DNA of 64,000 nt from NCBI RefSeq assembly GCF_035083965.1, contig NC_089724.1:6860501-6924500 (forward strand), written 5' to 3'. This stretch comes from Branchiostoma lanceolatum. Its lineage: Eukaryota; Chordata; Leptocardii; Amphioxiformes; Branchiostomatidae. Below are positions 570-64,000 of the stretch, one piece after another. The notes under the pieces were generated by a model. That model did no database searches, was not told the DNA's origin, and worked only from the letters and a program-made list of their open reading frames with translations. How positions within the stretch are numbered: position 1 is the stretch's first letter; the number at the start of each line of letters is the position of its first letter. The position numbers and the translations under genes are program-made.

Positions 570-3500
570 AACACATAAATTACACATAATCAGCAACCAA
601 ATAATACTCACCGGTAAGTTTGGTACACGTCCAGGTATGATTGAAGTCACGGCAACTGAGCAACCCATTAGGGTCAAACGACAGTGTTGCAGCGTCGAGT
701 TTTAGATTTCCATGGCCAGACTGTCTTTTGGAGCCGCCCAGAATCCCAGCCACAAGCGGGGCGTAGGTAACGGTGATCGTAGTTGAGGTTTGAGAGGGAA
801 GCTTTGTCCCAACGTCGTCCACAGCAACGACTGTCAAATAGAACGTGACCTCGCCGATCGCCATTCTGTTGGGCTGTACCTGTATGTCTGCCTGCTGCGT
901 GACAGCGATTCTGTTTAGTCGACTCTGTGTTACCTCATCGGCGCTCTTGAAAGTCCAGTCGTAACTGATTCTTCTGATACTCTCGACCGAACATTTCGAC
1001 GAGTACTCGATCACGCTGTTGAGTTGCAGTCGGTCACTCCTCTGTATAGTTCGCCCTCCCCCAAGTATGGTCACAATCGGTTTGCAACAACTGTGAGACC
1101 CGTTTGTGTTGACGCAAACAGAAACGTCATCACAGCCGTGGATGCCCAGAGCACATTCGTCGACATCTGGGGAAACATAGCGTCTCCTTGTCACACATCA
1201 CACATCTACCTTATCTGATGATTACTTTGAATAACAACGAGAAGATCACCAATTTTGATTCCTTATTCTCCGTTACCAACTTTTAAAGACTTTTCATGGT
1301 ACGCAGCAGTATACTTCCTCGGTGATGCCAAAAGAGCTTAAAGTTTACCCTATTTGAATTGAATCAAACTCAAATATACTTCAAGACATGGGAATTTGAT
1401 AGTCATACCTTCACACGTTGCTCCATTTGTTCTGTCATATCCTTCACGGCATTCACATGTCCAGTTAGACTTTCCCTCAACGCACTTCTCCTTATCGTAA
1501 TCATGGCAATGGCAGCGTTCAAGAGCTTGATAGGTAAAAGAAATAAGCTGGTTTACACATCCATGCGATAATGTGGATGTCACTGGTACTACCTGTGCCC
1601 AAATATCTAATACTCTGAAGAGTACAGGTTATGCTAATAATATCTTTTCAACATTTTCTTAGAGTAGACCACCAATCGACCTAATTCATATGCAATGTTT
1701 CGTTGAATGTATATTCAGTGCGGGAGTTTTTCTAAATGTCCCTTTAATGTTTTGGACGATATTATTGTTACATCAAGGCACAAAACCCACAGAGATGTTG
1801 ATACCTGTCAATACTTGAAGCTGGGTTATGGCGTAAATCATTGAATTGAGCTCAAGATTTTATGTATCACGTTCAATGGAGAGTGTACATACCTTCATCT
1901 CCAAATACAGTATAGTTACTCTGAATGGAGAGGTTTCCAATTTTGTTGTCGGCCGTTAGATTTGTAATGAGCAGCTCTAGTTTTGGGATAGTGACCCTGG
2001 TGATGTTCAACTCGTAAACCGCAATTAAACTTCCAGGACTGAAAAATTCAAATGAGGAATAGATCACCAAATATTGCAAAAACAAGAAATAGCATCAGGT
2101 GATGCATGCAGTACAGGTATAGGTACAAAACGATGCGCGGCTCGGCTTTTGGTCATTGATGAGGAAGAAGAAGAACTTTATTGCACGAATAATGTAGCAG
2201 GTACAAAGTATGGCAACAACAGTTAACATAGAACAAGACATAAATATGGAATAAAACTATTCACTACAACAAAATGACTATCTTAGGTTTTACATGGATC
2301 AAGTTTGGCTAATGATGAGTATCATTATTTTTTCTAATAGCAAAACAATCTTTTATATATTTGCCTATTTTAACACTGTGTGAGCTGTTGCATCTAAAGA
2401 TAAAGTCAAATCTATCTGTAGCATTGAGCGTCTTAAAATCTGAAGTACTCGAATTGATAAAGGTGAATAACTTATAGCGTAGGGCATCATATTTGGAGAA
2501 TTCCATAATAAAGAGAAGCTCATCTTCAATTCGATTTGGGCTGTGACAACCGTCTCATTACTTTCAATCTACACCAGACCATTCATTGGGCAGTAAGACT
2601 GTACGGAAACTACGGAAAAACTACGACTGATAAGGAAGCTCGTGACGGACCGGACAAAGTGGAGAGACTTAAAGAACAGGATGATTGCAGCTGCAGGATG
2701 CTTAGACCACAACAGCAGCAGAACACATTGGACTATTTCTATGACCGTAAGTACAGAGGGTGCATGGCTGTGGTAGGGAGGTGTGTAACATCATGATATA
2801 GAGGACGAAAAGAGAATCTAGAACATCTTGCATTTTTCTACGGTAGGGATAAGGGTTTTGCACGATATCACGACAACTGAACTTCCTACCGGAATCTCAG
2901 TACCCGCATGTTCTCCACTCCAATATGGTAATTGTCATGTTCGCCATCGCCGTCGTGGTCATGCCTCACGTACAGCCCTCTTGAACGTATGGCTTTCTCG
3001 AACTAGATAATTTTTTTTAGGTAATTCAAATTTCAATCAATCAATCAATCAATCAATCGATCGATCAAACAACCAATCGATGGATCGATCAGTATATCAA
3101 TATATCAATCAATAAATATATACACCAATCAACCAGTCAATCATTTCATTTCCATCAATCAATCAATCAATCAATCAATCGATCGATCAATCTATATATC
3201 AACCAATCAATAAAAAAGCAATCGATCGATCTATAAATAAATAAATCCAGGGTCAGTCAATCTACCTACCTATGTAGATTATCTACCTATCTAATTAATT
3301 ATACTGGTATGTATGCATACATGTATATATCTGACATGTGTGTCTATCCATCTATCTATTGCTCCATTCATTCATCTATATCAATTCATTTATCTATCAA
3401 TCGGCTCATTGTTCGTTTGGAAGGAGCTCTGTACCCAAATGATTAAGGTGATTTAATTATATCATTTAATCATTGTTGACGCTGAGAGCGAGAAAAACAA

Positions 3501-6500
3501 ACTCTTACATACCGGTTCCCGTACGATTCTTCTCCAATATCTAAAAGCCGGCGACGCTATATTTAGCATATCAATTGTGAAAACAAGAGTCGTGAACCTG
3601 CATGCAAAATGATGCGTGACCACCTCTGCAGAAAAGAACATCAACATCATTTGTGTTAAAATTATCATCAATGAATACAATGTACCATACATATAAGAAC
3701 TTTTGTTCTTTTGATGAGTAGTAGTACAGCCACCTGGTAAAAGCCAGGACTTACAGAATTACACACGTAACACAAAGCATCGGCTTCAGTGTCAACTCAT
3801 TACCTATGGTTACCTATATCCGTGAATAATTTCATCAGGTTGGAGAATGACTTAATAGCAAAGTTCTTTTACTCACAACCAAGTATTCACATGAACCAGG
3901 GATTCGATAATTAACTGTCTGTCATCTTCATCAGGGCAATACTGACTGGTTTACTGTGCACCGAAGCTAGGTATTACTGCTAACAATGCAGTCTCAAAAG
4001 TATTAATGTAACAATACTTAACGTTTGGGACTGCATTATTAGCAGTAATACCTAGCTTCAGTGCATAGTGAACCCTTTCAGTATTGCCCTGATGAAGATG
4101 ACAGACGGTCATCGAAACGTTGGCTCATGTAATTACTTGGTTGTGAATAAAATGACTTTGCTATTCGGTTACCTATATCCTTTGATTTAAGTATGAAATA
4201 GAAAACAAACTTTTACAAACGTCCTTTTCATTTGGAAAGGTGACGATAACAACGGCGTTCTATTTTTAAGGAAACAGCGGCAAGAGAAAAAAACAGCCAT
4301 ACCCGAACAAAATGTTCCATCCCCTCTGAAGCCATTGTTACAGATGCATCTCTTTAAACCATTGTTGCAGTATCCACTCAGGTGACAGTTCTGACGCCCA
4401 CAGTTTTCTAACTCTACGACAAAGAATTGAAAAGAAAGCTATGATATTCATCTGAAGACATTCGAAGATCAACAACAAGGGTGAGGGGTATTCTTTGACG
4501 TACAGCTTGACAATTCTATCATTTTTGTTCAGATATATTTTAAAGAAAAAACATAAAGGCTATGAGACATAATGTGAGAAATACATGCATGAAAATGCGA
4601 TGATGATAGAGTATATGATGTAGAAATAAGTAGTACTGTACATAGTAAATCACGCACCCTTTTCGCAGTTGCGTCCTGCATATTCCCGCGTACATCTACA
4701 GTTGTAGCTGTTTCCTCTTACAGTACAGGTTCCTCCGTTTTGACATGGATTAGAATGACATCTATCTGGAATATCAACAAGGGACGAATTTCCACATTCT
4801 CTATGGGTTATACGTTCTCTTGCAGCTTGCAAACAAAATATTGTGCATAAACCTCAAGTCTTCAAAAGGTGCGTGAAACGAATGAGATAAAAGATGTTTA
4901 GTAGTTTGAAAATGAAAAAGAGGCCTACCTAAACATCCAGTTCCACTAGCGAGACCATCTCCTGTATATCCAGTGTTGCAGGTGCAAGTGGCGTTGAGGG
5001 CAGGAGCGGGATTATCTGTACAGGTGGATTGCGCGTGGCATGGATTGTCCAAGCAGGCATCGGTGTCTGCATGGTATAAACGAAAGCAGTAGTCATCACT
5101 AAACAAAATCAATAAAAAAGAAAACAAAAAAAAAAGGAAAGAGATCGGTCAATTGTGCCCATTTCCAGTGTATCGAGGAAGCAATACCTGTACATCCAGT
5201 GCCACTGACAAGGCCATCTCCTGTATATCCAGGGTTGCAGGTACAAATGGCGTTGAGTACAGGAGCGGCGGGATTATGTGTGCAAGTGGCGTTCACGTGA
5301 CACGGATTGGCCAAACAGGGGTCGATACCTGCAAACGTTATCATAAGAACACCCATTACTAAAGAAATATCAGTGAAAAAGAAATTTGGCAAAAGTAAGA
5401 AACCCAATTTGAAAACAAAACAAAACCACAAGTCACTATTACATTGATTGTAAGCACTGCAAAATTGGCATACCTGAACATCCAGTTCCACTGGCGCGAC
5501 CATCTCCTGTATATCCAGGGTTGCAGGTACAAATGGCGTTGAGTACAGGAGCGGCGGGATTATGTGTACAATTGGCCTGCACGTGACACGGATTGGCCAA
5601 GCAAGGGTCGATAGCTGCAAACGGTATCATAAGAACACCCATTACTAATGAAATATCAGTAAAAAAGAATTCTGGCAAAAGTAAGAAACCCAATTTGAAC
5701 TGAACAAAACAAAACAAAACAAAACAACAAGTCACTATTACATTGATTGTAAGCGCTGCGAGGTAGGAATACCTGAACATCCAGTTCCACTGGCGCGACC
5801 ATCTCCTGTATATCCAGTGTTGCAGGTGCAAGTGGCATTGAGGGCAGGAGCGGGATTATCTGTACAGGTGGCTTGCGCGTGGCATGGATTGTCCAAGCAG
5901 GCATCGATGTCTGCATGGTATAAACAAAAGCAGTAATCACTAAACAAAATCAATAAAAAAGAAAACAGCAAAAAAGGAAAGAGATCGGTCAATTGTGTCC
6001 ATTTCCAGTGTATCGAGGGGGCAAAACCTGTACATCCAGTGCCACTGACAAGGCCATTTCCTGTGTATCCAGGGTTGCAGGTACAGACGGCGACAGGAGC
6101 GGCGGGATTATGTGTACAGGTGGCGTTCACGTGACACGGATTGGCCAAGCAGGGGTCGATAGCTACAAACGGTATGAAAACACCCATTACTAAATAAATA
6201 TCAATAAAAAAAGACTGGCAACCTAAATCTGGCCCCGGCCCCTTTAAGCCAACCAATTTGAAAACAACAAAACGAAAGGAAACAAAACAAGAACTAAACT
6301 GAACACAAATAAAAGAAGAAAGAAGGGAGGTTGAACTAGTCACTTTAGATTGATTGTAAGCGCCACAAGATACCTGAGCATCCACTTCCACTGGCGCGAC
6401 CATCTCCTGTATATCCAGGGTTGCAGGTACAAATGGCATTGAGTACAGGAGCGGCGGGATTATGTGTACAGGTGGCGTTCACGTGACATGGATTGGCCAA

Positions 6501-57500: not shown

Positions 57501-60500
57501 TTGTTTTGGACTCTGTTGATCTATGACTTGTTTTTAAGGTAGTTTGTCTCTATATGAATTAAAGAAAAAACAATGGTTATGTCTTTGCATTGTAATAAGT
57601 GTTATTTGTAACCATAACACGTATTAGAAAGTCATGTTAGAATAATTCAAAAGATCCTTTAAAAATCTACCAAAAACCCGGAAAGGTGTTTGATAAAGTT
57701 GTTCGATAAGAGTTTTTGTTGTTGTTTAAGTCTAGTTTGTTTCTTTACCGTAGTTGTGATTGGAGTTGTCTGTAGTGTTGAGAACACTGTAGTTGGCGTT
57801 GTGGTCGGTAGTGTGGATTTGTCACTTGTCCTCTGCGTACTCAGAACAGTTGTGGGCATTGTTGTCTTTTGACTTGTACTCAAGGTGGTTTGTACCTGTA
57901 TTTAAAAAAAAGAACAAGAATGTGGTTTGTTTTCAGTGCGTCATAAAAATAGTAAATATAAGTTTTCTCAAAGCAATCTATGACTAGACTTGGTAGTAAA
58001 GTTGACCTTTCTAGAATGACATTCAATTTCATAGTATGGACTATCAGTTTTGTTTCTTAACCGTTGTTGCGGATGGAGTTGTCCGTAGCGTTGTCGATAC
58101 GGTAGTGGGCTGTGTGGTCAGTAGTGTAGATCTGTCAGTTGTCTTGTGAGTTGGTAGAATCGTTTTAGACATCGTTGTTCTATGACTTGTACTTAAAGTA
58201 GTTTGTCTCTGTATGAATCAAAGAAAAAAACGATGGTTGTGTTTTTTGCGTTATGATGATTGTAAGCATAAGATGTATTAGGAAGTCACGTTTGAACAAC
58301 TAAGAAGATTTATGAAAAATGTAGCTGGAACCAGGAAAAACGTTTGATAAAGTTGATCTGTTCAAATAATACTTTTGTTTAAGTCTGTTGTCTTTCCTTA
58401 CCGTAGTTGCGGATGGAGTTGTCTGTAGGGTTGTCGATACTGTTGTGGGCTGTGTGGTCAGTAGTGTAGATTGGTCAGTTGTCTTGTGAGTTGGTAGAAT
58501 TGTTTTGGACTCTGTTGTTCTAAGACTTGTTTTTAAAGTAGTTTGTCTCTACATGAATTAAAGAAAAAACAATGGTTATGTTCTGCATTGTAATGAGTGT
58601 TATTTTTAACCATAACCTGTATTATAAAAGTCATGTTAGAATAATTCAAAAGATCCTTTAAAAATCTACCAAAAACCCGGAAAGGTGTTTAATAAAGCTG
58701 TTCTGTTTAAATAGTTCTTTTGTTTAAGTCTGGTTTGTTTCTGTACCGTAGTTGTGATTGGAGTTGTATGTAGTGTTGAGAATACTGTAGTTGGCGTTGT
58801 GGTCGGTAGTGTGGATTTGTCAGTTGTCCTCTGCGTACTCAGAACAGTTGTGGGCATTGTTGTCTTTTTACTTGTACTTAAGGTGGTTTGTATCTGTATT
58901 TAAAAAAAAGAACAAGAATGTGGTTTGTTTTCAGTGCGTCATAAAAATAGTAAATATAAGTTTTCTCAAAGCAATCTATGACTACACTTGGTAGTAAAGT
59001 TGACCTTTCTAGAATGACATTCAATCTCATAGTATGGACTATCAGTTTTGTTTCTTTACCGTAGTTGCGGATTGAGTTGTCAGTAGAGTTGTCGATATGG
59101 TAGTGGGCTGTGTGGTCAGTAGTGTAGATCTGTCAGTTGTCTTGAAAGTTGGTAGAATCGTTTTAGACATCGTTGTTCTATGACTTGAACTTAATGTAGT
59201 TTGTCTCTGTATGAATCAAAGAAAAAAAACGATGGTTGTGTTTTTTTGCGTTATGATGATTGTAAGCATAAGATGTATTAGGAAGTCACGTTTGAACAAT
59301 TTAGAAGATTTATGAAAAATGTAGCTGGAACCTGGAAAAATGTTTGATAAAGTTGATACGTTCAAATAATACTTTTGTTAAGTCTGCTTTGTTTCTTTAC
59401 CGTAGTTTCGGATTGAGTTGTCTGCAGAGTTGAGTGTACTGTAGCTGGTTTTGTGGTCATTATTGTGGATTTTTCAGTTGTCCTTTCCGTACTCAGAAAA
59501 GTTGTGGGCATTGTTGTTCTTTGACTTGTACTGGAGGTAGTTTGAATCTGCATTTAAATAAAGACCAAGAATATGGTTTGGTTTCATTGCGTCGTAATAA
59601 TCGTCAACGTTATCTTCGAAAGCAATTTTAGAAAATTCCAAGGGATTAGCAAAATAATCCGTCGAAGAAAAGTATATGAATGCTTAACGGTAGTGGAACT
59701 TTTTAGAATGACATTTTATGTCAATTGTGTTGCTTTACCGTAGTAGTGGGTTGACTTGTCCGTAGCGTTGTCGATACTGTAGTTGGCGTTGTGGTCAGTA
59801 GTGTGGATTTGTCAGTTGTCTTGTGAGTTGGTAGAATTGTTTTGGACTCTGTTGTTCTATGGCTTGTTTTTAAGGTAGTTTGTCTCTACATGAATTAAAG
59901 AGAAAACAATGGCTATGTTTTTGCATTGTAATGAGTGTTATTTGTAACCATAATCCGTATTAGAAAGTTATATTAGAATAAACCAAAACATTCTTAAAGA
60001 ATCTAACCAGAACCCGGAAAGTTTTTGATAAAGTTGTGTTTCATTTTATATATTTTTTAATGTTGTTTAAGTCTGGTTTGTTTCTTTACCGTAGTTGTGA
60101 TTGGAGTTGTCTGTAGTGTTGAGAATACTGTAGATGGCGTTGTGGTCAGTAGTGTGGATTTGTCAGTTGTCCTTTCCGTACTCAGAACAGTTGTGGGCAT
60201 TGTTGTCTTTTTACTTGTACTTAAGGTGGTTTGTATCTGTATTTAAAACAAAGAATAAGAATGTGGTTTGATTTCAGTGCGTCATAAAAATAGTAAATAC
60301 AAGTTTTCTGAAAGCATTATATGACAAGTATTGGTAGTAAGCAAAAGAATCTATCGAGGAAAAGTAAATGAATGCTGAACTTAAGTGGACCTTTCTAGAA
60401 TGCCATTCTATGTCATAGTATGGAATATCAGTTTTGTTTCTTTACCCTAGTTGCGGATGGAGTTGTCCGTAGCGTTGTCGATACTGTAGTGGGCTGTGTG

Positions 60501-63500
60501 GTCAGTAGTGTAGATTGGTCAGTTGTATTGTGAGTTGGTAGAATTGTTTTGGACTCTGTTGATCTATGACTTGTTTTTAAGGTAGTTTGTCTCTATATGA
60601 ATTAAAGAAAAAACAATGGTTATGTCTTTGCATTGTAATAAGTGTTATTTGTAACCATAACACGTATTAGAAAGTCATGTTAGAATAATTCAAAAGATCC
60701 TTTAAAAATCTACCAAAAACCCGGAAAGGTGTTTGATAAAGTTGTTCGATAAGAGTTTTTGTTGTTGTTTAAGTCTAGTTTGTTTCTTTACCGTAGTTGT
60801 GATTGGAGTTGTCTGTAGTGTTGAGAACACTGTAGTTGGCGTTGTGGTCGGTAGTGTGGATTTGTCACTTGTCCTCTGCGTACTCAGAACAGTTGTGGGC
60901 ATTGTTGTCTTTTGACTTGTACTCAAGGTGGTTTGTACCTGTATTTAAAAAAAAGAACAAGAATGTGGTTTGTTTTCAGTGCGTCATAAAAATAGTAAAT
61001 ATAAGTTTTCTCAAAGCAATCTATGACTAGACTTGGTAGTAAAGTTGACCTTTCTAGAATGACATTCAATTTCATAGTATGGACTATCAGTTTTGTTTCT
61101 TAACCGTTGTTGCGGATGGAGTTGTCCGTAGCGTTGTCGATACGGTAGTGGGCTTTGTGGTCAGTAGTGTAGATCTGTCAGTTGTCTTGTGAGTTGGTAG
61201 AATCGTTTTAGACATCGTTGTTCTATGACTTGTACTTAAAGTAGTTTGTCTCTGTATGAATCAAAGAAAAAAACGATGGTTGTGTTTTTTGCGTTATGAT
61301 GATTGTAAGCATAAGATGTATTAGGAAGTCACGTTTGAACAACTAAGAAGATTTATGAAAAATGTAGCTGGAACCAGGAAAAACGTTTGATAAAGTTGAT
61401 CTGTTCAAATAATACTTTTGTTTAAGTCTGTTGTCTTTCCTTACCGTAGTTGCGGATGGAGTTGTCTGTAGGGTTGTCGATACTGTTGTGGGCTGTGTGG
61501 TCAGTAGTGTAGATTGGTCAGTTGTCTTGTGAGTTGGTAGAATTGTTTTGGACTCTGTTGTTCTAAGACTTGTTTTTAAAGTAGTTTGTCTCTACATGAA
61601 TTAAAGAAAAAACAATGGTTATGTTCTGCATTGTAATGAGTGTTATTTTTAACCATAACCTGTATTATAAAAGTCATGTTAGAATAATTCAAAAGATCCT
61701 TTAAAAATCTACCAAAAACCCGGAAAGGTGTTTAATAAAGCTGTTCTGTTTAAATAGTTCTTTTGTTTAAGTCTGGTTTGTTTCTGTACCGTAGTTGTGA
61801 TTGGAGTTGTATGTAGTGTTGAGAATACTGTAGTTGGCGTTGTGGTCGGTAGTGTGGATTTGTCAGTTGTCCTCTGCGTACTCAGAACAGTTGTGGGCAT
61901 TGTTGTCTTTTTACTTGTACTTAAGGTGGTTTGTATCTGTATTTAAAAAAAAGAACAAGAATGTGGTTTGTTTTCAGTGCGTCATAAAAATAGTAAATAT
62001 AAGTTTTCTCAAAGCAATCTATGACTACACTTGGTAGTAAAGTTGACCTTTCTAGAATGACATTCAATCTCATAGTATGGACTATCAGTTTTGTTTCTTT
62101 ACCGTAGTTGCGGATTGAGTTGTCAGTAGAGTTGTCGATATGGTAGTGGGCTGTGTGGTCAGTAGTGTAGATCTGTCAGTTGTCTTGAAAGTTGGTAGAA
62201 TCGTTTTAGACATCGTTGTTCTATGACTTGAACTTAATGTAGTTTGTCTCTGTATGAATCAAAGAAAAAAAACGATGGTTGTGTTTTTTGCGTTATGATG
62301 ATTGTAAGCATAAGATGTATTAGGAAGTCACGTTTGAACAATTTAGAAGATTTATGAAAAATGTAGCTGGAACCTGGAAAAATGTTTGATAAAGTTGATA
62401 CGTTCAAATAATACTTTTGTTAAGTCTGCTTTGTTTCTTTACCGTAGTTTCGGATTGAGTTGTCTGCAGAGTTGAGTGTACTGTAGCTGGTTTTGTGGTC
62501 ATTATTGTGGATTTTTCAGTTGTCCTTTCCGTACTCAGAAAAGTTGTGGGCATTGTTGTTCTTTGACTTGTACTGGAGGTAGTTTGAATCTGCATTTAAA
62601 TAAAGACCAAGAATATGGTTTGGTTTCATTGCGTCGTAATAATCGTCAACGTTATCTTCGAAAGCAATTTTAGAAAATTCCAAGGGATTAGCAAAATAAT
62701 CCGTCGAAGAAAAGTATATGAATGCTTAACGGTAGTGGAACTTTTTAGAATGACATTTTATGTCAATTGTGTTGCTTTACCGTAGTAGTGGGTTGACTTG
62801 TCCGTAGCGTTGTCGATACTGTAGTTGGCTGTGTGGTCGGTAGTGTTGATCTGTCAGTTGTCTTGTAAGTTGGTAGAATTGTTTTAGACATCGTTGTTTT
62901 GTGACTTGTACTTAAGGTGGATTTTCTCTGCGTGAATTAAAAAAAAAACGATGGTTGTGTTTCTTGTGTTGTAATGATTGTAAGCATAAGCTGTATTCGA
63001 ATTCAATGTTTCTCTAGAACCAAGTAAAAGGGCTTAACTAAAGTTGACCGGTTAAAAAGTACCTTTGTTCAAGTTTGTTTTGTTTCCTTACCGTAGTTCC
63101 GGATGGAGTTGTCCGTAGCGTTGTCGATACTGTAGTTGGCTTTGTGGTCAGTAGTGTAGATTGGTCAGTTGTCTTGTGAGTTGGTAAAATTGTCTTGGAC
63201 TCTGTTGATCTATGACTTGTTTTTAAGGTAGGTTGTCTCTACATGAATTAAAGAAAAACAATGGTTATGTTTTTGCATTGTAATGAGTGTTATTTGTAAC
63301 CATAACCCGTATTAGAAAGTCATGTTAGAATAATTCAAAAGTTTCTTAAAAATATCTACCCCAAACCCGGAAAAGAGTTAAATGAAGTTGTTCGGTTTGA
63401 TAGTTATTTTGTTTAAGCCTGGTTTGTTTCTGTACCGTAGTTGTGAATGGACTTGTCTGTAGTGCTGAGAATACTGTAGTTGGTATTGTGGTCAGTAGTG

Positions 63501-64000
63501 TGGATTTTTCACCTGTCCTCTGCGTACTGAGATGAGCTGAGGGCATTGTTGTTCTATAACTTATCAAATTTGTGCTGCAAATGTGTGGGCCCTACTTTTC
63601 TATTAGTGCTTTTAAAAAATCGATCATTTCTGACCCCTTTAAAAACTTCATCAACCACCATGATATTTTTTTGGTGTAATTATATTATGGTTACGATGTG
63701 AAAGGTAAAATGACAGCTTGCATATAAAAACAATAAGATCTGCACACCGGTATATTTACGCTAGTACAACCTCTCCTTTTCTTCCGCGCTACGAATAAGT
63801 GTAAGAACCCTCCTTACTGTTGTTCGGTCGGTCGTCGAATGTGTAGAAGGGTTCGGTGTTGTCTTCTGTGTTGTTGTTAAATCCGTGGTAAATGTCGTCG
63901 GACTGTTCGTTGTCAAAAGAGTGGTAGGATTCTTTGTGGTTGGGATTGTCGTAACGAGTGTGGAATCGTCAGTCGTCCGCTCTGTTGTGACAAGAGGTGT
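217..64000 (-). CDS. Giant mucin-EGF-SEA-EGF-REJ protein gene, polycystin-1-like (internal part of one multi-exon gene)
   Basis: One minus-strand gene explains all convincing coding sequence. In transcription order it holds a Thr-rich exon cut by the right edge, about 156 more Thr-rich exons, twelve EGF-like exons, two more EGF exons, a SEA domain in three exons, an EGF exon, and an exon carrying a short EGF plus a REJ domain. Splice sites follow GT-AG and phases match at every junction from 9621 to 612: phase 0 through the mucin part, an adapter exon of phase 0 to 1, phase 1 through the EGFs, and 1-0-2-1 inside SEA. SEA and EGF domains are typical of membrane mucins; REJ is known from polycystin-1 and PKDREJ. 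The protein is therefore probably a cell-surface, heavily O-glycosylated receptor. Start, signal peptide, membrane spans and stop lie outside the window. Treating it as one gene rather than two neighbours is an inference from phase continuity. Confidence 0.78.
471..502. other. Perfect 14-bp-stem hairpin beside a CA microsatellite
   Basis: ATCTCCATGAAAAA at 471-484 is the exact reverse complement of 489-502, with a 4-base loop. It lies just before the CA repeat, inside the intron downstream of the REJ exon. It may be a relic of a small palindromic element; nothing points to a function. Confidence 0.6.
507..564. repeat. (CA)n microsatellite
   Basis: About 28 nearly uninterrupted AC dinucleotides on the plus strand (TG on the coding strand), within the intron immediately 3' of the REJ exon donor. 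Expected to vary in length between individuals. Confidence 0.95.
612..1166 (-). CDS. Exon: shortened EGF joined to REJ (receptor for egg jelly) domain
   Basis: This 555-bp exon (phase 1 to phase 1, 185 residues) starts after the acceptor TTTCCCCAG at 1167-1175 and ends at the donor ACCG/gtgagt. Its first ~35 residues look like a calcium-binding EGF (DVDEC start, then a CVNTNGSHSC stretch) but the usual C-x-C...C end is missing. From about residue 38 it runs straight into a REJ region: ILGGGRT followed by SYDW, then PLVAGILGGS with LKLDAATLSFDPNG and HTWTC. The same order (GGS, LDGS.SYDPN, HWAC) is seen in the REJ domain of polycystin-1. REJ domains occur in polycystin-1 family proteins and the sea urchin sperm receptor for egg jelly, where they form part of the large ectodomain. 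The REJ is incomplete here and must continue to the left of the window. Confidence 0.82.
1409..1525 (-). CDS. Exon: EGF-like domain between SEA and REJ
   Basis: A 117-bp exon, phase 1 on both sides, with acceptor CTATCAAG and donor GAAG/gtatga. It encodes an EGF-like module beginning ALERCHCHDYDKEKC and ending CECREGYDRTNGATC, with six cysteines and the usual C-x-C and GY features. Its phase matches the SEA exon upstream (1893-2038) and the EGF/REJ exon downstream (1166). An EGF directly after SEA is also common in transmembrane mucins. Confidence 0.82.
1893..2038 (-). CDS. Exon: SEA domain, C-terminal third (cleavage motif and last strands)
   Basis: A 146-bp exon, entered with one base completing a codon and left in phase 1, bounded by ATTTTTCAG and GAAG/gtatgt. 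With the last codon of the upstream exon it reads R-PGSLIAVYELNITRV, the GSxxx turn and following strand of SEA domains, then a helix (IPKLELLITNLT) and the closing strand. SEA domains of this kind fold and cut themselves between G and S of a GSVVV-like motif, leaving two tightly held subunits. Here the motif is FRPGSLIAV, close to the FRPGSVVV of mucin MUC1. Three NxT/S sites follow. Whether it really cleaves cannot be told from sequence. Confidence 0.82.
2161..2560 (-). mobile_element. 5'-truncated LINE (non-LTR retrotransposon) 3' end in a SEA intron
   Basis: On the minus strand 2309-2550 reads as the C-terminal tail of a LINE polyprotein: a CHS..NRIEDELLF stretch, then FSKYDALRYKLF and a KIGKYIKDCF end, matching the usual zinc-knuckle-like CxxC...IEDE.HFL...C..Y..LR pattern of CR1/L2-like elements with its cysteine pattern decayed. 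A short 3' region follows and ends at AATAAAGTTCTTCTTCTTCC (about 2180-2161), a typical CTT-repeat LINE tail. The 5' side is lost near 2560. It lies in the intron between the middle and last SEA exons, in the gene's own orientation. The family name is an inference. Confidence 0.6.
2890..3002 (-). CDS. Exon: SEA domain, middle part
   Basis: A 113-bp exon found by phase requirement: the upstream SEA exon ends in phase 0 and the downstream one needs two bases carried in, and this exon starts in phase 0 and leaves two bases. Acceptor TTATCTAG at 3003-3010, donor TTCCG/gtagga. It reads FEKAIRSRGLYVRHDHDG, an acidic loop, then NYHIGVENMRVLRFR. This is the helix, loop and strand (Y..V.V..FR) that precede the GS turn in SEA domains. 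Joined to its neighbours it gives a SEA domain of normal length (about 110-120 residues). The acceptor has a weak pyrimidine tract, which is the main reservation. Confidence 0.75.
3031..3400. repeat. Tetranucleotide (TCAA/ATCG-type) microsatellite tract
   Basis: Runs of TCAA interrupted by TCGA, TATC and CTAT variants fill about 370 bp of the intron between the first and middle SEA exons. The purest stretches are at about 3034-3065 and 3152-3200. This is ordinary low-complexity intron sequence. Confidence 0.9.
3513..3625 (-). CDS. Exon: SEA domain, N-terminal part
   Basis: A 113-bp exon, phase 1 in and phase 0 out, with acceptor TTTTCTGCAG and donor ACCG/gtatgt. It encodes VVTHHFACRFTTLVFTIDML followed by NIASPAFRYWRRIVREP. 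The FT.DMLN..SP.F..W....... pattern is the first strand and helix of SEA domains (in mucins the equivalent is a FT..L.N..S..F..L stretch). It follows the EGF exon 4303-4407 in matching phase and leads into 2890-3002. Confidence 0.72.
3822..4166. mobile_element. Inverted-repeat retroelement insert, probably Penelope-like, with 14-bp target-site duplication
   Basis: Arms 3854-4008 and 4019-4166 are reverse complements of each other with moderate divergence, giving a near-complete palindrome. The insert is flanked by an identical 14-base direct repeat, GGTTACCTATATCC, at 3808-3821 and 4167-4180. A long target duplication of this kind suits retroelement insertion rather than a MITE with a short fixed duplication. 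The right arm contains CTGATGA (4089-4095), a 6-bp stem GATGAC/GTCATC (4097-4102 with 4108-4113), then GAAA (4114-4117), the order of conserved parts in hammerhead ribozymes, which Penelope-like elements are known to carry. One extra A separates core and stem, so the ribozyme reading is tentative. It lies in the intron between the second of two EGF exons and SEA. Confidence 0.6.
4303..4407 (-). CDS. Exon: EGF-like domain directly before SEA
   Basis: A 105-bp exon, phase 1 both sides, acceptor GTAGAGTTAG, donor TCGG/gtatgg. The 35 residues ENCGRQNCHLSGYC followed by RCICNNGFRGDGTFC contain the six cysteines of an EGF-like module, with C-x-C and GF.GDG. Phase and position fit between the EGF exon at 4658 and the first SEA exon. 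It was too short and lacked a Met, so it is easy to overlook. Confidence 0.82.
4658..4765 (-). CDS. Exon: EGF-like domain, Notch/laminin type
   Basis: A 108-bp exon, phase 1 both sides, acceptor GATATTCCAG, donor AAGG/gtgcgt. It reads DRCHSNPCQNGGTC then YNCRCTREYAGRNCEKG, a compact EGF with the classic PCQNGGTC and C.C...Y.G..C signature. It differs in type from the twelve NPCH...GYTGDG modules upstream, so it is not a product of the same local expansion. Confidence 0.88.
4929..5066 (-). CDS. Exon: EGF-like module 12 (D-class)
   Basis: The last of twelve related EGF exons, 138 bp, phase 1-1. D-class modules begin D-[IT]-DAC, continue LDNPCHAQ, and carry PAPALNATCTCNTGYTGDG with a GC end: six cysteines, and one or two N-glycosylation sequons (NAT). 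This copy begins DTDACLDNPCHAQSTC and ends GLASGTGCL, splicing to the Notch-type EGF at 4765. Such stalks usually act as stiff spacers or binding surfaces outside the cell. Confidence 0.9.
   Translation of the reverse strand, partial: TPMPAWTIHATRNPPVQIIPLLPSTPLAPATLDIQEMVSLVELDV
5188..5328 (-). CDS. Exon: EGF-like module 11 (P-class)
   Basis: 141 bp, phase 1-1. P-class modules begin [AG]IDPC and carry HNPAAPVLNAICTCNPGYTG, one codon longer than the D-class. This copy begins GIDPCLANPCHVNATC and ends GLVSGTGCTG; it alone in the P-class starts with Gly because its acceptor is CAG/GTATC instead of CAG/CTATC. Confidence 0.9.
5474..5614 (-). CDS. Exon: EGF-like module 10 (P-class)
   Basis: 141 bp, phase 1-1, donor CAG/gtatgc. 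Reads AIDPCLANPCHVQANC and ends GRASGTGCSG. HVQANC replaces the HVNATC of its relatives, so the first glycosylation sequon is lost. Confidence 0.9.
5773..5910 (-). CDS. Exon: EGF-like module 9 (D-class)
   Basis: 138 bp, phase 1-1. Reads DIDACLDNPCHAQATC and ends GRASGTGCSG. Its upstream intron closely matches the intron beside module 12 (shared GCATGGTATAAAC start), so 12 and 9 are copies of one exon-plus-intron unit with P-class modules between them. Confidence 0.9.
6028..6162 (-). CDS. Exon: EGF-like module 8 (P-class, two codons shorter)
   Basis: 135 bp, phase 1-1. Reads AIDPCLANPCHVNATC, then PAAPVAVCTC, two residues shorter than PAAPVLNAICTC, leaving the six cysteines intact. Donor is CAG/gttttg, an unusual donor for this array (others gtatng). 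Acceptor is TTTGTAG instead of TTTGCAG. Confidence 0.88.
6374..6514 (-). CDS. Exon: EGF-like module 7 (P-class)
   Basis: 141 bp, phase 1-1. AIDPCLANPCHVNATC start and GRASGSGCSG end. With module 6 and its intron it forms a recent tandem duplicate: the introns around 6170-6360 and 6520-6710 are nearly the same, including the run from CTAAATAAATATC through GATTGATTGTAAGCGCCAC. Confidence 0.9.
6721..6861 (-). CDS. Exon: EGF-like module 6 (P-class)
   Basis: 141 bp, phase 1-1. AIDPCLTDPCHVNATC start and GRASGSGCSG end. Near-duplicate of module 7 (347 bp apart). Confidence 0.9.
7063..7203 (-). CDS. Exon: EGF-like module 5 (P-class)
   Basis: 141 bp, phase 1-1. AIDPCLADPCHVNATC start and GRGSESGCSG end. 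The intron on its upstream side holds the 1.1-kb inverted-repeat insert at 7348-8473. Confidence 0.9.
7348..8473. mobile_element. 1.1-kb insert with inverted arms in an EGF intron
   Basis: The intron pattern shared by the P-class EGF exons (...CTGAACACAAATAAAAGAAG...) is interrupted here between ACAAA and TAAAAGAAG, so about 1.1 kb has been inserted. Inside, 8039-8145 and 8317-8417 are imperfect reverse complements (both contain a CGATATAC/GCATATCG core and GGTGATGCAC on opposite strands). The right end carries a short hairpin, GAAGGAGGTCATCCTCCTTC (about 8444-8463). I see no coding sequence, so it is most likely a non-autonomous DNA transposon, possibly with a second piece of unknown origin at 7350-8020. 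Ends and family are uncertain. Confidence 0.55.
8539..8679 (-). CDS. Exon: EGF-like module 4 (P-class)
   Basis: 141 bp, phase 1-1. AIDPCLANPCHVNATC start, PAALVLNAICTC middle and GRASGSGCSG end. Its downstream intron begins like that of modules 6 and 7, then runs into the 7348-8473 insert. Confidence 0.9.
8873..9010 (-). CDS. Exon: EGF-like module 3 (D-class)
   Basis: 138 bp, phase 1-1. DIDACLVNPCHVNANC start, PAPALDATCTCSTGYTG middle, GLVNGTGCTG end. The N-x-T near the end (NGT) is an extra sequon shared with modules 1 and 2. Confidence 0.88.
9166..9303 (-). CDS. Exon: EGF-like module 2 (D-class)
   Basis: 138 bp, phase 1-1. DIEACLFNPCHVDANC start, PAPALNATCTC middle and GLVNGTGCTG end. Modules 2 and 3 with their introns are 293-bp tandem duplicates: 9011-9165 and 9304-9458 share almost the whole intron, starting CTGCAAACGATCAAAC. 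Confidence 0.9.
9459..9621 (-). CDS. Adapter exon: end of mucin region plus EGF-like module 1
   Basis: A 163-bp exon that enters in phase 0 (acceptor ATTCTTCTGCAG) and leaves in phase 1. It starts TTMQMTSGIYACKFDPC, a last Thr-containing stub, and continues into a D-class EGF (HPNATCTDN...GLVNGTGCTG). It is the only exon that converts the phase-0 frame of the mucin exons into the phase-1 frame of the EGF exons, and so ties the two halves of the gene together. Without it the mucin array and EGF array could be two separate genes. Confidence 0.85.
9622..9997. other. Intron between mucin and EGF parts
   Basis: About 375 bp of AT-rich sequence with no open frame or repeat that I can support. It separates the last Thr-rich exon (9998-10144) from the adapter exon. 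Confidence 0.7.
9998..14181 (-). CDS. Thr-rich mucin exons, irregular 3' end of the A/B array (13 intact exons)
   Basis: Intact exons: 9998-10144, 10283-10429, 10626-10772, 10901-11050, 11233-11373, 11507-11656, 11848-11994, 12122-12274, 12660-12806, 12934-13083, 13415-13564, 13758-13904, 14032-14181. All are multiples of three, phase 0-0, with GT-AG sites. Class A exons begin MPTTLSTSQKTT after CATAATGTAG and end TTQPTTT/gtaaag; class B begin R.TTLSTSPMTTT after TTTCAAAACAG or AATACAG and end TTQPTTT/gtaacg. Composition is about half Thr with some Ser, Pro and Gln and no Cys: a mucin-type O-glycosylated stalk. Copies here are the most diverged in the A/B family, with uneven spacing, so this looks like the old edge of the array. 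The most 3' exon (RRTSLSTSHRTTTPTT) mixes B and C features. Two broken copies lie within it. Confidence 0.85.
12372..12467 (-). pseudogene. Truncated class A mucin exon
   Basis: The exon begins normally at 12467 (MPTTLSTSQKTT) and keeps TTDES, but its 3' third and its donor are deleted; the sequence runs on into intron. It would most likely be skipped, which costs nothing because neighbouring exons are also phase 0. Confidence 0.7.
13277..13380 (-). pseudogene. Truncated class B mucin exon
   Basis: The donor side (13277, ACTACG/gtaacg) and about the last 30 codons are present, but the acceptor side is lost: at about 13376 the sequence jumps into the intron of the next class A exon. An AAG just upstream of ACGACTGAC could in principle act as a new in-phase acceptor, giving a shorter exon, but it lacks a good pyrimidine tract. 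Confidence 0.6.
14373..23201 (-). CDS. Thr-rich mucin exons, regular 620-bp A/B dimer array (29 exons)
   Basis: All 29 exons are exactly 150 bp (50 codons), phase 0-0. Class B: 14373-14522, 14993-15142, 15614-15763, 16234-16383, 16854-17003, 17475-17624, 18095-18244, 18714-18863, 19334-19483, 19953-20102, 20573-20722, 21193-21342, 21813-21962, 22433-22582, 23052-23201. Class A: 14650-14799, 15270-15419, 15891-16040, 16511-16660, 17131-17280, 17752-17901, 18372-18521, 18991-19140, 19611-19760, 20230-20379, 20850-20999, 21470-21619, 22090-22239, 22710-22859. The B type here reads RHTTLNTSPMTTTETTALTT...HKTTDESTLLTTQPTS..., ending TTPPPTTT. Introns are about 127 bp (B/A spacing on one side) and 193 bp (on the other) and are as alike between units as the exons are, so whole 620-bp units were duplicated recently. 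Confidence 0.88.
14373..27199. repeat. 620-bp tandem repeat array (one A exon, one B exon, two introns per unit)
   Basis: Unit length holds at 619-621 bp over about twenty copies. Blocks of three units were duplicated again: about 14.9-16.7 kb recurs 1861 bp further on (two 88-codon antisense stretches starting at 15514 and 17375 are identical), 18.66-18.96 kb recurs 1239 bp further (two units), and about 23.3-24.5 kb recurs 1862 bp further. The pattern is growth by unequal crossing-over in multiples of 620 bp. Confidence 0.92.
23329..27479 (-). CDS. Thr-rich mucin exons, A/B array with RATT-type B exons (13 A/B exons plus one C)
   Basis: Class A: 23329-23478, 23951-24100, 24572-24721, 25191-25340, 25813-25962, 26431-26580, 27050-27199. 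Class B: 23671-23823, 24294-24443, 24914-25063, 25533-25685, 26156-26305, 26773-26922. Class C: 27357-27479 (123 bp). B exons here carry an added residue, TTTRATTALTT instead of TTTETTALTT. The 153-bp versions at 23671 and 25533 also have HNTTGES, creating an N-glycosylation sequon absent from most B exons. The C exon, RQTTLSTSHRTTMPTTDKST..., belongs to the family of the 45.9-63.6 kb array and is eight codons shorter than the usual 49. Confidence 0.86.
27670..27853. mobile_element. Truncated foldback element, copy 1, fused to a B exon
   Basis: 184 bp matching the left end of the complete element at 44792-44975, with its inverted CACGGTTTGTGAC motifs. It stops at TTTTGGGCTG and joins directly to the inside of a class B exon (fragment 27854-27914, which keeps only its 5' 61 bp and acceptor). 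The B exon therefore lost its 3' part and donor; read on in frame it soon reaches a stop. Skipping is the likely outcome. Confidence 0.85.
27854..44600 (-). CDS. Thr-rich mucin exons in six higher-order repeats (42 A/B exons plus six C exons)
   Basis: Block 1: A 28042-28191, 28663-28812, 29282-29431; B 28385-28534, 29005-29154; C 29589-29711. Block 2: A 30275-30424, 30897-31046, 31518-31667, 32137-32286; B 30617-30769, 31240-31389, 31860-32009; C 32444-32566. Block 3: A 33130-33279, 33750-33899, 34369-34518; B 33472-33621, 34092-34241; C 34676-34798. Block 4: A 35361-35510, 35982-36131, 36602-36751, 37221-37370; B 35704-35853, 36324-36473, 36944-37093; C 37528-37650. Block 5: A 38214-38363, 38836-38985, 39457-39606, 40076-40225; B 38556-38708, 39179-39328, 39799-39948; C 40383-40505. 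Block 6: A 41069-41218, 41691-41840, 42312-42461, 42931-43080, 43552-43701, 44171-44320; B 41411-41563, 42034-42183, 42654-42803, 43274-43423, 43894-44043; C 44478-44600. All intact exons are phase 0-0. Each block also has a B fragment fused to transposon sequence, listed separately. Confidence 0.86.
29903..30086. mobile_element. Truncated foldback element, copy 2, fused to a B exon
   Basis: Same 184-bp left-end piece and same junction as copy 1; B fragment 30087-30147. This B fragment is of the TCATTGGGCTTG / GTGTCTG subtype, unlike copies 1, 3 and 4, so sequence beyond the junction has since been exchanged with other units. Confidence 0.85.
32758..32941. mobile_element. Truncated foldback element, copy 3, fused to a B exon
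   Basis: Identical junction; B fragment 32942-33002, same subtype as copy 1 (TAATTGGACTTG). The intron just before it has GGAAGTTAGC where most copies have GGGAGTTAGC, a change shared only with copy 6. Confidence 0.85.
34989..35172. mobile_element. Truncated foldback element, copy 4, fused to a B exon
   Basis: Identical junction; B fragment 35173-35233, same subtype as copies 1 and 3. It heads block 4. Confidence 0.85.
37842..38025. mobile_element. Truncated foldback element, copy 5, fused to a B exon
   Basis: Identical junction; B fragment 38026-38086, same subtype as copy 2. Copies 2 and 5 lie 7939 bp apart within a near-identical long duplication (30.4-32.1 kb matches 38.3-40.0 kb). Confidence 0.85.
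40697..40880. mobile_element. Truncated foldback element, copy 6, fused to a B exon
   Basis: Identical junction; B fragment 40881-40941, same subtype as copies 2 and 5. It heads the longest block (4095 bp), the one ending in the complete element. Confidence 0.85.
44792..45858. mobile_element. Complete foldback-type DNA element with inverted arms and internal motif array
   Basis: About 1067 bp inserted in the intron between the class C exons at 44478 and 45880; the native intron (AGTCTATTTTGTTGCTTTACC, as at 47180-47200) is split around it. Both ends start GTCAC on opposite strands. Inner arms near 45028-45150 and 45590-45710 are reverse complements (CCGCCATCTTTGTTTTTTTC, then CGCTGGGATGAG, then AGCGTAATTCTCGCTC). 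Between and beside them lie about a dozen inverted or direct copies of GGCACGGTTTGTGACAGTGCC-like motifs, dense at 45180-45415. No open reading frame of transposase size is present, so it is non-autonomous. A target-site duplication is not clear (TTGGTGTTGC and TTGTGTTGC flank it). Confidence 0.75.
45880..53444 (-). CDS. Thr-rich mucin exons, class C array, irregular part (about 22 exons)
   Basis: Exons: 45880-46008, 46205-46339, 46530-46667, 46861-47019, 47199-47345, 47546-47692, 47865-47999 (acceptor unclear), 48204-48350, 48676-48822, 49010-49135, 49324-49470, 49988-50134, 50331-50465, 50673-50816, 51013-51147, 51362-51508, 51723-51869, 52063-52209, 52411-52557, 52845-52991, 53379-53444, plus a damaged copy at about 49650-49768. 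Normal length is 147 bp (49 codons), phase 0-0. Consensus begins RQTTFSTSHRTTMP.T, then THKSTDRSTLLTT and ends TT.STTT/gtaaag; acceptors are TGCAG or TATAG. Sizes of 126, 129, 135, 138, 144 and 159 bp show codon-level gains and losses, always multiples of three. Introns average about 195 bp. Compared with the A/B array these copies are well diverged, so most of this part is older. Confidence 0.82.
48490..48605 (-). mobile_element. Retroelement 3' tail in a mucin intron
   Basis: The intron between 48350 and 48676 is about 130 bp longer than its neighbours. On the minus strand the extra sequence ends ACTTGCAATTAGCC...GAACTTGCAATAAAC, which resembles the 3' end of a LINE or SINE with an AATAAA signal. 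It is followed by short TATA-rich simple sequence. Family not identified. Confidence 0.4.
49650..49768 (-). pseudogene. Damaged class C mucin exon (donor lost)
   Basis: The acceptor side is normal (TGCAG at 49769-49773, then GGACAAACTATC), but the donor side, normally ACTACG/gtaaag, has become CTATGATG with no GT in the right place. Probably skipped in phase. Confidence 0.55.
52756..53205 (-). pseudogene. Remnants of two class C exons
   Basis: At 52756-52770 and 53173-53200 only the donor edge of a class C exon survives (TTTCTTAACCGTAAAG and TTTCTTTACCGTAATTGCG); the bodies are deleted. The intact exon 52845-52991 lies between them. Confidence 0.55.
53379..53444 (-). CDS. Miniature class C exon, 22 codons
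   Basis: A class C exon with its middle removed: it keeps a normal acceptor (ATGTAG) and a usable donor (ACTACA/gtaaag), and the remaining 66 bp are in frame, reading RQSTLKTSHRTT and ending in Thr. It shows a deletion tolerated because it is a multiple of three. Confidence 0.65.
53652..62927 (-). CDS. Thr-rich mucin exons, class C, three tandem nine-exon blocks (28 exons)
   Basis: All are 147 bp, phase 0-0. Lead exon 53652-53798. Copy 1: 54003-54149, 54359-54505, 54705-54851, 55018-55164, 55359-55505, 55704-55850, 56017-56163, 56358-56504, 56696-56842. Copy 2: 57047-57193, 57403-57549, 57749-57895, 58062-58208, 58402-58548, 58747-58893, 59060-59206, 59401-59547, 59739-59885. Copy 3: 60090-60236, 60446-60592, 60792-60938, 61105-61251, 61445-61591, 61790-61936, 62103-62249, 62443-62589, 62781-62927. 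A typical one reads VQTTLSTSQKTTMPTTVL, then TQRTSDKSTLPTT and ends TTPITTT. The second exon of each copy ends ACTAGG/gtaaag, one Arg in place of the usual final Thr. Confidence 0.88.
53690..62820. repeat. 3043-bp tandem triplication
   Basis: Three copies at about 53690-56733, 56734-59777 and 59778-62820, offset 3044, 3043 and 3042 bp. Differences are very few, for example A-run lengths (55180, 58224, 61266), TCTGTGTGG versus GCTGTGTGG at 56063, and TCTGTATGAATTGAAG versus ATTAAAG. The breakpoints fall inside class C exons (near 53690 and 62820), so the triplication arose by unequal crossing-over between homologous exons. Confidence 0.93.
63092..63238 (-). CDS. Thr-rich mucin exon, class C
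   Basis: 147 bp, phase 0-0, acceptor ATGTAG, donor ACTACG/gtaagg. It lies 5' of the 3043-bp triplication and is a single, diverged copy. Confidence 0.82.
63436..63559 (-). CDS. Thr-rich mucin exon, class C, with altered 5' side
   Basis: Donor ACTACG/gtacag and 3' body are normal (YRTTMPSAHLSTQRTGEKST, then TTIPTTVFSALQTS). The usual start (acceptor, then RQTT.STS) is missing; upstream sequence is GCAGCACAAATTTGATAAG. The available AG sites there do not give the expected phase 0 with an open frame, so this exon may be inactive or may use another acceptor. Confidence 0.5.
63560..63817. other. Intron between the class C array and the long 5' Thr-rich exon
   Basis: About 255 bp unlike the array introns, with no repeat or open frame that I can support. 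It marks the 5' border of the tandem exon array. Confidence 0.65.
63818..64000 (-). CDS. Long Thr-rich mucin exon, cut by the window edge
   Basis: At least 183 bp (61 codons) open to the edge, leaving in phase 0 at ACAACA/gtaagg. It reads TPLVTTERTTDDSTLVTTIP, then TTKNPTTLLTTNSPTTFTT and TTTQKTTPNPSTHSTTDRTT. The stretch TTDDSTLVTT is clearly related to TTDESTLVTT of class A exons, but spacing and length differ, so it is a non-array relative and possibly close to the ancestral long mucin exon. Confidence 0.8.

Follow-up and report, generated by a model that had tools for sequence, protein, structure and literature searches.

Organisation of the locus

The window, by which we mean the whole 64,000-nucleotide stretch of Branchiostoma lanceolatum DNA analysed here, is occupied by a succession of minus-strand exons, the modules of which run from 5' to 3' as a Thr-rich stalk, 12 EGFs, 2 EGFs, a SEA-like block, an EGF and an EGF_CA-REJ exon. 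Both the exon-intron structure and the EGF and REJ content match an animal gene read from the minus strand. Both ends of the gene are outside the window, because Thr-rich coding runs at base 64000 and an intron follows the REJ exon at 611. The following features were delineated:

9998..63996, minus strand, Thr-rich mini-exon array, 165 copies (nhmmer profile, splice-site rule, exon scan)
44780..45870 (edges approximate, by eye), no strand assigned, intra-array insertion with many inverted repeats (CACGGTTTGTGACA units) (repeat search)
27853..40938, minus strand, six broken exon copies fused to the tail of the 44780-45870 insertion (nhmmer, one of six read)
9998..10144, minus strand, last mucin exon, phase 0 donor (exon rule)
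9459..9621, minus strand, junction exon, opening in phase 0 with the mucin end TTTMQMTS, followed by EGF 1 and closing in phase 1 (spliced frame)
9303-9166, minus strand, EGF 2, phase 1-1 (spliced frame, Pfam)
9010-8873, minus strand, EGF 3, phase 1-1 (spliced frame, Pfam)
8679-8539, minus strand, EGF 4, phase 1-1 (spliced frame, Pfam)
7203-7063, minus strand, EGF 5, phase 1-1 (spliced frame, Pfam)
6861-6721, minus strand, EGF 6, phase 1-1 (spliced frame, Pfam)
6514-6374, minus strand, EGF 7, phase 1-1 (spliced frame, Pfam)
6162-6028, minus strand, EGF 8, phase 1-1 (spliced frame, Pfam)
5910-5773, minus strand, EGF 9, phase 1-1 (spliced frame, Pfam)
5614-5474, minus strand, EGF 10, phase 1-1 (spliced frame, Pfam)
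5328-5188, minus strand, EGF 11, phase 1-1 (spliced frame, Pfam)
5066-4929, minus strand, EGF 12, phase 1-1 (spliced frame, Pfam)
4658..4765, minus strand, EGF 13, phase 1-1 (spliced frame, Pfam)
4303..4413, minus strand, EGF 14, phase 1-1 (spliced frame, Pfam)
3513..3625, minus strand, SEA-like exon a, phase 1-0 (spliced frame, Pfam after loop removal)
2890..3002, minus strand, SEA-like exon b, phase 0-2, holding the DHDGDGEHD (DxDxDG) loop (spliced frame, shuffles)
1893..2038, minus strand, SEA-like exon c, phase 2-1, holding R-P-G-S-L-I-A-V-Y (spliced frame)
1409..1525, minus strand, EGF 15, phase 1-1 (spliced frame, Pfam)
612..1166, minus strand, partial EGF_CA and N-terminal part of REJ in one exon, phase 1 donor at 611 (spliced frame, Pfam)

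The 19 tail exons between 9621 and 612 join with matching phases into a stop-free frame of 986 aa, in agreement with the phase-consistent exon chain that an earlier note on this DNA had described. The frame needed was the only one open in 14 of these exons and one of two in the other five. A Pfam scan of the tail in four pieces gave 14 stretches of EGF_3 (E 3.9e-80), and exon frame and Pfam agree on the series of 12+2 EGFs, EGF and EGF-REJ proposed earlier, with the last of these EGFs being partial (EGF_CA, E 2.7e-7, best stretch at positions 1-28 of 43). The first 12 EGFs are near-identical, the exons of EGF 2-12 sharing 84-96% nucleotide identity (21 equal-length pairs), and the donor of the EGF 8 exon is weak (gttttg). 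The tail introns contain two AATAAA (7677, 2182) and three ATTAAA (3470, 3457, 1748); poly(A)-type signals in these introns and in the intron between stalk and EGF 1 make shorter transcripts possible. It should be added that 53 out of 55 non-overlapping AATAAA of the minus strand are located in the array region.

We consider a single continuous mucin-EGF-SEA-like-EGF-REJ reading frame well supported at the DNA level. On these grounds the window most probably represents the middle of one minus-strand animal gene, predicted to encode a giant mucin/EGF/SEA-like/REJ surface glycoprotein and most likely a PKD1-family-like receptor, a reading to which we assign a probability of about 0.6.

Genes on the plus strand were considered and rejected, as the exon scan yields 0 on this strand and its five ORFs of 164 aa face exon copies on the other. 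From 10 kb onward, the plus strand shows a steady excess of G and T, which is expected opposite long ACN-rich (Thr) coding arrays. Neither Rfam RNA families at gathering score nor tRNAs were found in the window. Repeats outside the array include an 85-nt inverted repeat (8061-8394, 78% complementary, MITE-like) in the intron that separates EGF 4 from EGF 5 and is unusually long at 1,335 bp, a palindromic element with inverted repeats of 66, 54 and 39 nt (3854-4165) in the intron preceding the SEA-like block, and, by eye, two similar copies of a dispersed-looking repeat (1-575) beside a 32-copy AC run at 511-575.

The SEA-like block and the REJ exon

Between EGF 14 and EGF 15 there is a block of 124 residues, the size of a SEA domain. 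The native block gave no match in Pfam, nor did its C-terminal 55 residues alone. After removal of a 15-residue loop, SEA was the sole family reported out of 24,736 (E 0.0011, 19.5 bits, profile positions 10-73 of 106), with a score below the curated Pfam cut-off of 26.4; the loop was chosen from the alignment to SEA and was the first deletion tried. Among five other 15-residue deletions, one gave SEA weakly (E 0.18, profile positions 51-89) and four gave nothing, while shuffles of the block produced no Pfam match at all (0/4). Comparison of the block with three real SEA sequences from PDB was not significant (802 of 3000 shuffles were as good or better), and hhalign against three real PDB SEAs returned a probability of 0.1 on a 0-100 scale. 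A profile combining a general SEA consensus with four PDB fragments scored 1.2 bits, a value equalled or exceeded by 73 of 2000 shuffles; none of 3000 shuffles was as good with this consensus alone, a result not counted, since the consensus was written after the block had been viewed. Sequence search with the block yielded a chance-level hemocyanin match only (E 0.26).

Aligned to the same consensus, G-S-L-I-A-V-Y of exon c occupies what we take to be the position of the SEA G/S cleavage motif. DHDGDGEHD is presumably a calcium-loop-type motif; DxDxDG occurred in 17 of 20,000 shuffles of the block, a frequency that applies to a motif picked after being seen. It seems that the DHDGDGEHD insertion hides the block from Pfam SEA until it is removed. 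The SEA module placed between the EGFs by the earlier note corresponds to this three-exon block, and its identification as SEA is, judged by the loop-removed match, probable.

The profile search for REJ which that note had proposed returned PF02010 well above its cut-off (E 2.2e-15, 56.7 bits against 25), over profile positions 12-130 of 452 within the window; the REJ domain that marks the polycystin-1/REJ family is present, on the part of it that lies inside the window. As the partial EGF_CA and the start of REJ share one uninterrupted exon frame, the link between EGF and REJ needs no splice assumption. The fused protein proposed earlier stands as regards the continuous frame, with its junction exon 9621-9459 and shared EGF/REJ exon, and the epithet "polycystin-type" derives solely from the first quarter or so of REJ. 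C-type lectin, WSC and PKD repeats, which are common, not universal, in polycystin-1/REJ ectodomains, were absent from the Pfam results for the 986-aa tail, as was HormR. The REJ piece had no match against PDB sequences or in NCBIfam, and the EGF-REJ exon had no relative among viral contigs. Neither a GPS nor a membrane span was found within the window; REJ is cut by the window edge and the gene continues to the left.

It is possible, if rather unlikely, that this one gene encodes a membrane mucin or a SpREJ1-like protein, with REJ followed by one membrane span or by a secreted end and with neither PLAT nor channel, which would make it a sheddable glycocalyx protein and not a polycystin signalling unit. 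The EGF-SEA-EGF order, usual in membrane mucins, points in this direction. No channel part was seen in the window, an absence that is uninformative given that the window edge cuts REJ. As described in passages of PMC1934368, SpREJ proteins have 1 to 11 membrane segments and SpREJ10 is devoid of GPS, but GPS is present in all other predicted SpREJ and human PKD1 proteins. The best reading is that the gene is a chimera of a membrane mucin and a REJ protein. Most likely, a membrane-mucin ectodomain has taken the place of a PKD1-type N-terminus or been added to it, with GAIN/GPS, PLAT and membrane spans predicted to lie left of base 1, outside the window.

The mini-exon array and its junction with the EGF run

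Searching the whole window with an nhmmer DNA profile built from 96 canonical mucin exons detected 165 mini-exon copies, all of them (165/165) on the minus strand and none on the plus strand. The copies are mostly 147 or 150 bp long, in phase 0-0, and separated by intervals of mostly 125-215 bp. An exon rule that demanded an AG acceptor, a phase-0 stop-free run of 25 codons or more, Thr at 25% or above, Ser+Thr+Pro at 40% or above and a GT donor picked out 144 minus-strand exons that do not overlap, against 0 on the plus strand; 20 Markov controls of the minus strand yielded 0-2. With counts so far above these controls, an origin from chance Thr-rich ORFs was rejected.

Under a fixed splice-site rule, 145 of the 165 copies are full-length, stop-free and in phase 0-0 with AG/GT sites, amounting to 7,131 aa with 42.5% T (3,028 Thr), 9.5% S and 7.8% P, which is the Pro/Thr/Ser-rich repeat stalk that characterises membrane mucins. 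Inspection by eye added seven intact copies (two that are 45 codons long, four whose donor is gttaag and one short copy), bringing the intact total to 152/165 and the stalk to ~7,460 aa, if all 152 are spliced in; the earlier estimate of roughly 7,500 residues is borne out by this figure. Of the 155 copies for which the rule placed both splice sites, 153 have an exon length divisible by 3, an outcome that the phase-0 exons of the profile favour; of the 144 intervals separating successive intact copies, 29 are divisible by 3. Three mucin exons compared with Pfam gave only a chance-level match to CTD5 (E 0.31).

Thirteen copies are not intact: six are broken by the tail of a mobile element, and seven are partial, frame-broken, truncated at the window edge or lacking an acceptor. 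The insertion at 44780-45870, with inverted arms of up to 109 nt and 87% complementarity, is probably a foldback-type mobile element. The six copies fused to its tail start at 40938, 38083, 35232, 33001, 30144 and 27913, break near profile position 59 and have an in-frame stop after the break; presumably, they are skipped in splicing. It seems that one break event, copied via tandem duplication of larger units, gave rise to all six.

Selection was assessed by codon-aware comparison of distinct copies in families A (30 sequences), B (27), C (28) and "other" (3), and divergence of introns was taken from roughly the first hundred bases after each exon. Family B had a dN/dS of 0.35 (exon p 0.057 vs intron 0.163), family C of 0.70 (0.219 vs 0.269) and family A of 0.74 (0.082 vs 0.116). 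Since the values for A and C are only mildly below 1, constraint in these families is mild. The small group of three copies had a dN/dS of 0.56, yet its exons diverge more than its introns (0.211 vs 0.181). In twelve comparisons at offsets of 620 to 4,095 bp, stretches of 600 or 1,500 bases were 95.5-100% identical, and unequal duplication is therefore recent.

An array that is mostly decayed or inflated, with many copies unspliced or produced by tandem assembly expansion and with a much shorter real stalk, is distinctly unlikely. Such an explanation would draw on the 13 damaged or edge-cut copies, on the same element break spread by duplication to six of them and on the 99-100% identity of several units; however, frame and both splice sites are kept in 152 of the 165 copies, 77 distinct peptides occur among the 145 rule-intact exons, and exons diverge less than introns in the three main families.

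The EGF 1 exon starts in phase 0, where EGF exons 2-15 start in phase 1; it matches the phase-0 mucin donor and begins with Thr-Thr-Thr. Of the DNA evidence for stalk and EGFs belonging to one gene, this start of the junction exon is the best. Very improbable is a split into two transcripts, in which a mucin gene would end near 9748 and a separate gene for EGF-SEA-EGF-REJ would begin within the 9.9-9.6 kb intron or at one of the Met codons in the junction exon, or in which alternative ends would give both: the 376-bp intron does contain one ATTAAA (at 9748), and the junction exon has, close to its start, Met codons that are potential translation starts, but AATAAA is absent from this intron, the phase-0 start and Thr-Thr-Thr fit the mucin donor, and a promoter within 376 bp plus a signal peptide would be required, which the residues after the Met codons, by eye, do not resemble.

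Relatives and proposed mode of action

Membrane mucins MUC3, MUC12 and MUC17 possess a long Pro/Thr/Ser stalk, coded mainly by one giant exon, and the EGF-SEA-EGF order. The gene in the window differs from them by a stalk coming from ~150 mini-exons and by REJ in place of the membrane span. MUC17-based glycocalyx reaches 1 um, according to PMC12172626. In ADGRG4, a glycosylated flexible region of ~2,000 residues precedes SEA-HormR-GAIN, as a part of PMC13197933 describes. This protein is the nearest working analogue, having a long stalk, SEA and then a GAIN receptor, although GAIN was not seen in the window gene; ADGRG4 has pentraxin and HormR where the window gene has the EGF run and REJ.

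Kidney-disease polycystins and the sperm receptors of sea urchins contain REJ. In SpREJ/PKD1 proteins, according to passages of PMC1934368, REJ is preceded by lectin, PKD and WSC and in some cases by one EGF or a region rich in serine; shared with the window gene are REJ itself, the one EGF of SpREJ1 and the serine-rich region near the SpREJ9 N-terminus. The terms "SEA domain", "SEA module" and "mucin" did not appear in the main text of PMC1934368. Distinct from the SpREJ family, the window gene has an EGF run, a SEA-like block and a Thr stalk of >7,000 aa, and no C-type lectin, WSC or PKD in 9621-612.

The polycystin-1 of C. elegans, LOV-1, was reportedly described in 1999 with a Ser/Thr-rich mucin-like ectodomain, and we know of no EGF run, SEA or such exon array in it. 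In view of LOV-1, a mucin on polycystin-1 may not be new as a principle. The word "mucin" was not found for LOV-1 in the searched passages of the PMC9829181 main text; two fly "mucin" genes are said to resemble lov-1 in a passage of PMC1173111, and passages of PMC5318412 contained no "mucin", "serine" or "threonine", the EGF matches shown being EGFP. Furthermore, parts of two other papers describe Ciona s-Themis as a hypervariable region with REJ, GPS and LH2 (PMC7018956) and a coral REJ protein as WSC-PKD-REJ-GPS-PLAT (PMC4890752). As far as these parts go, both are sperm or surface proteins with differing N-termini on REJ-GPS-PLAT/LH2, namely the hypervariable region in s-Themis and WSC with PKD repeats in the coral protein, compared to the mucin stalk here. 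In the open-licence literature, no paper was retrieved with "REJ domain", "SEA domain" and "EGF" together, and among the matches listed no title or abstract start held the mucin/EGF/SEA/REJ combination.

Splicing, glycosylation, the membrane part and force sensing, as well as a role as mechanosensor or gamete-surface molecule, are what we infer from the predicted architecture. The ~3,000 Thr of the stalk would be O-glycosylated, and the glycosylated stalk would stand ~1.5-2 micrometres off the cell, as barrier and lever, this length following from 0.2-0.3 nm per residue. The EGF run and SEA-like module would connect the stalk to REJ. Pull or shear would open the SEA joint, perhaps in a calcium-tuned manner, and force would pass on to REJ and to GAIN/GPS below, outside the window. 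In its most elaborate form, which we regard as unlikely, the protein would be a polycystin-1-type channel receptor with a 2-micrometre mucin lever and a calcium-gated SEA breaking joint above REJ/GAIN, hence two force-labile joints in series, and with stalk length set by an evolving skip-safe array of ~150 phase-0 mini-exons and possibly differing between individuals. If confirmed, SEA mucins and REJ/GAIN polycystins, two force-exposed classes of surface proteins, would be united in one chain, and the mucin stalk could be tested as a lever on a polycystin.

The stalk would lengthen and shorten through unequal crossing-over between phase 0-0 exon units, which are skip-safe in that exons could be gained, lost or skipped with no damage to the frame. 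The persistence in the array of six broken exons spread by duplication is consistent with this. The array would thus exemplify a mucin stalk that grows by duplication of whole mini-exons and not of repeats inside one giant exon, and, with duplications recent (up to 100% identity over 600 bases), differences in stalk length between individuals are to be expected. At 53650-62590, three units of ~3,042 bp follow one another, each with nine stalk exons, and comparison of 1,500 bases between neighbouring units gave 99.6-99.8% identity.
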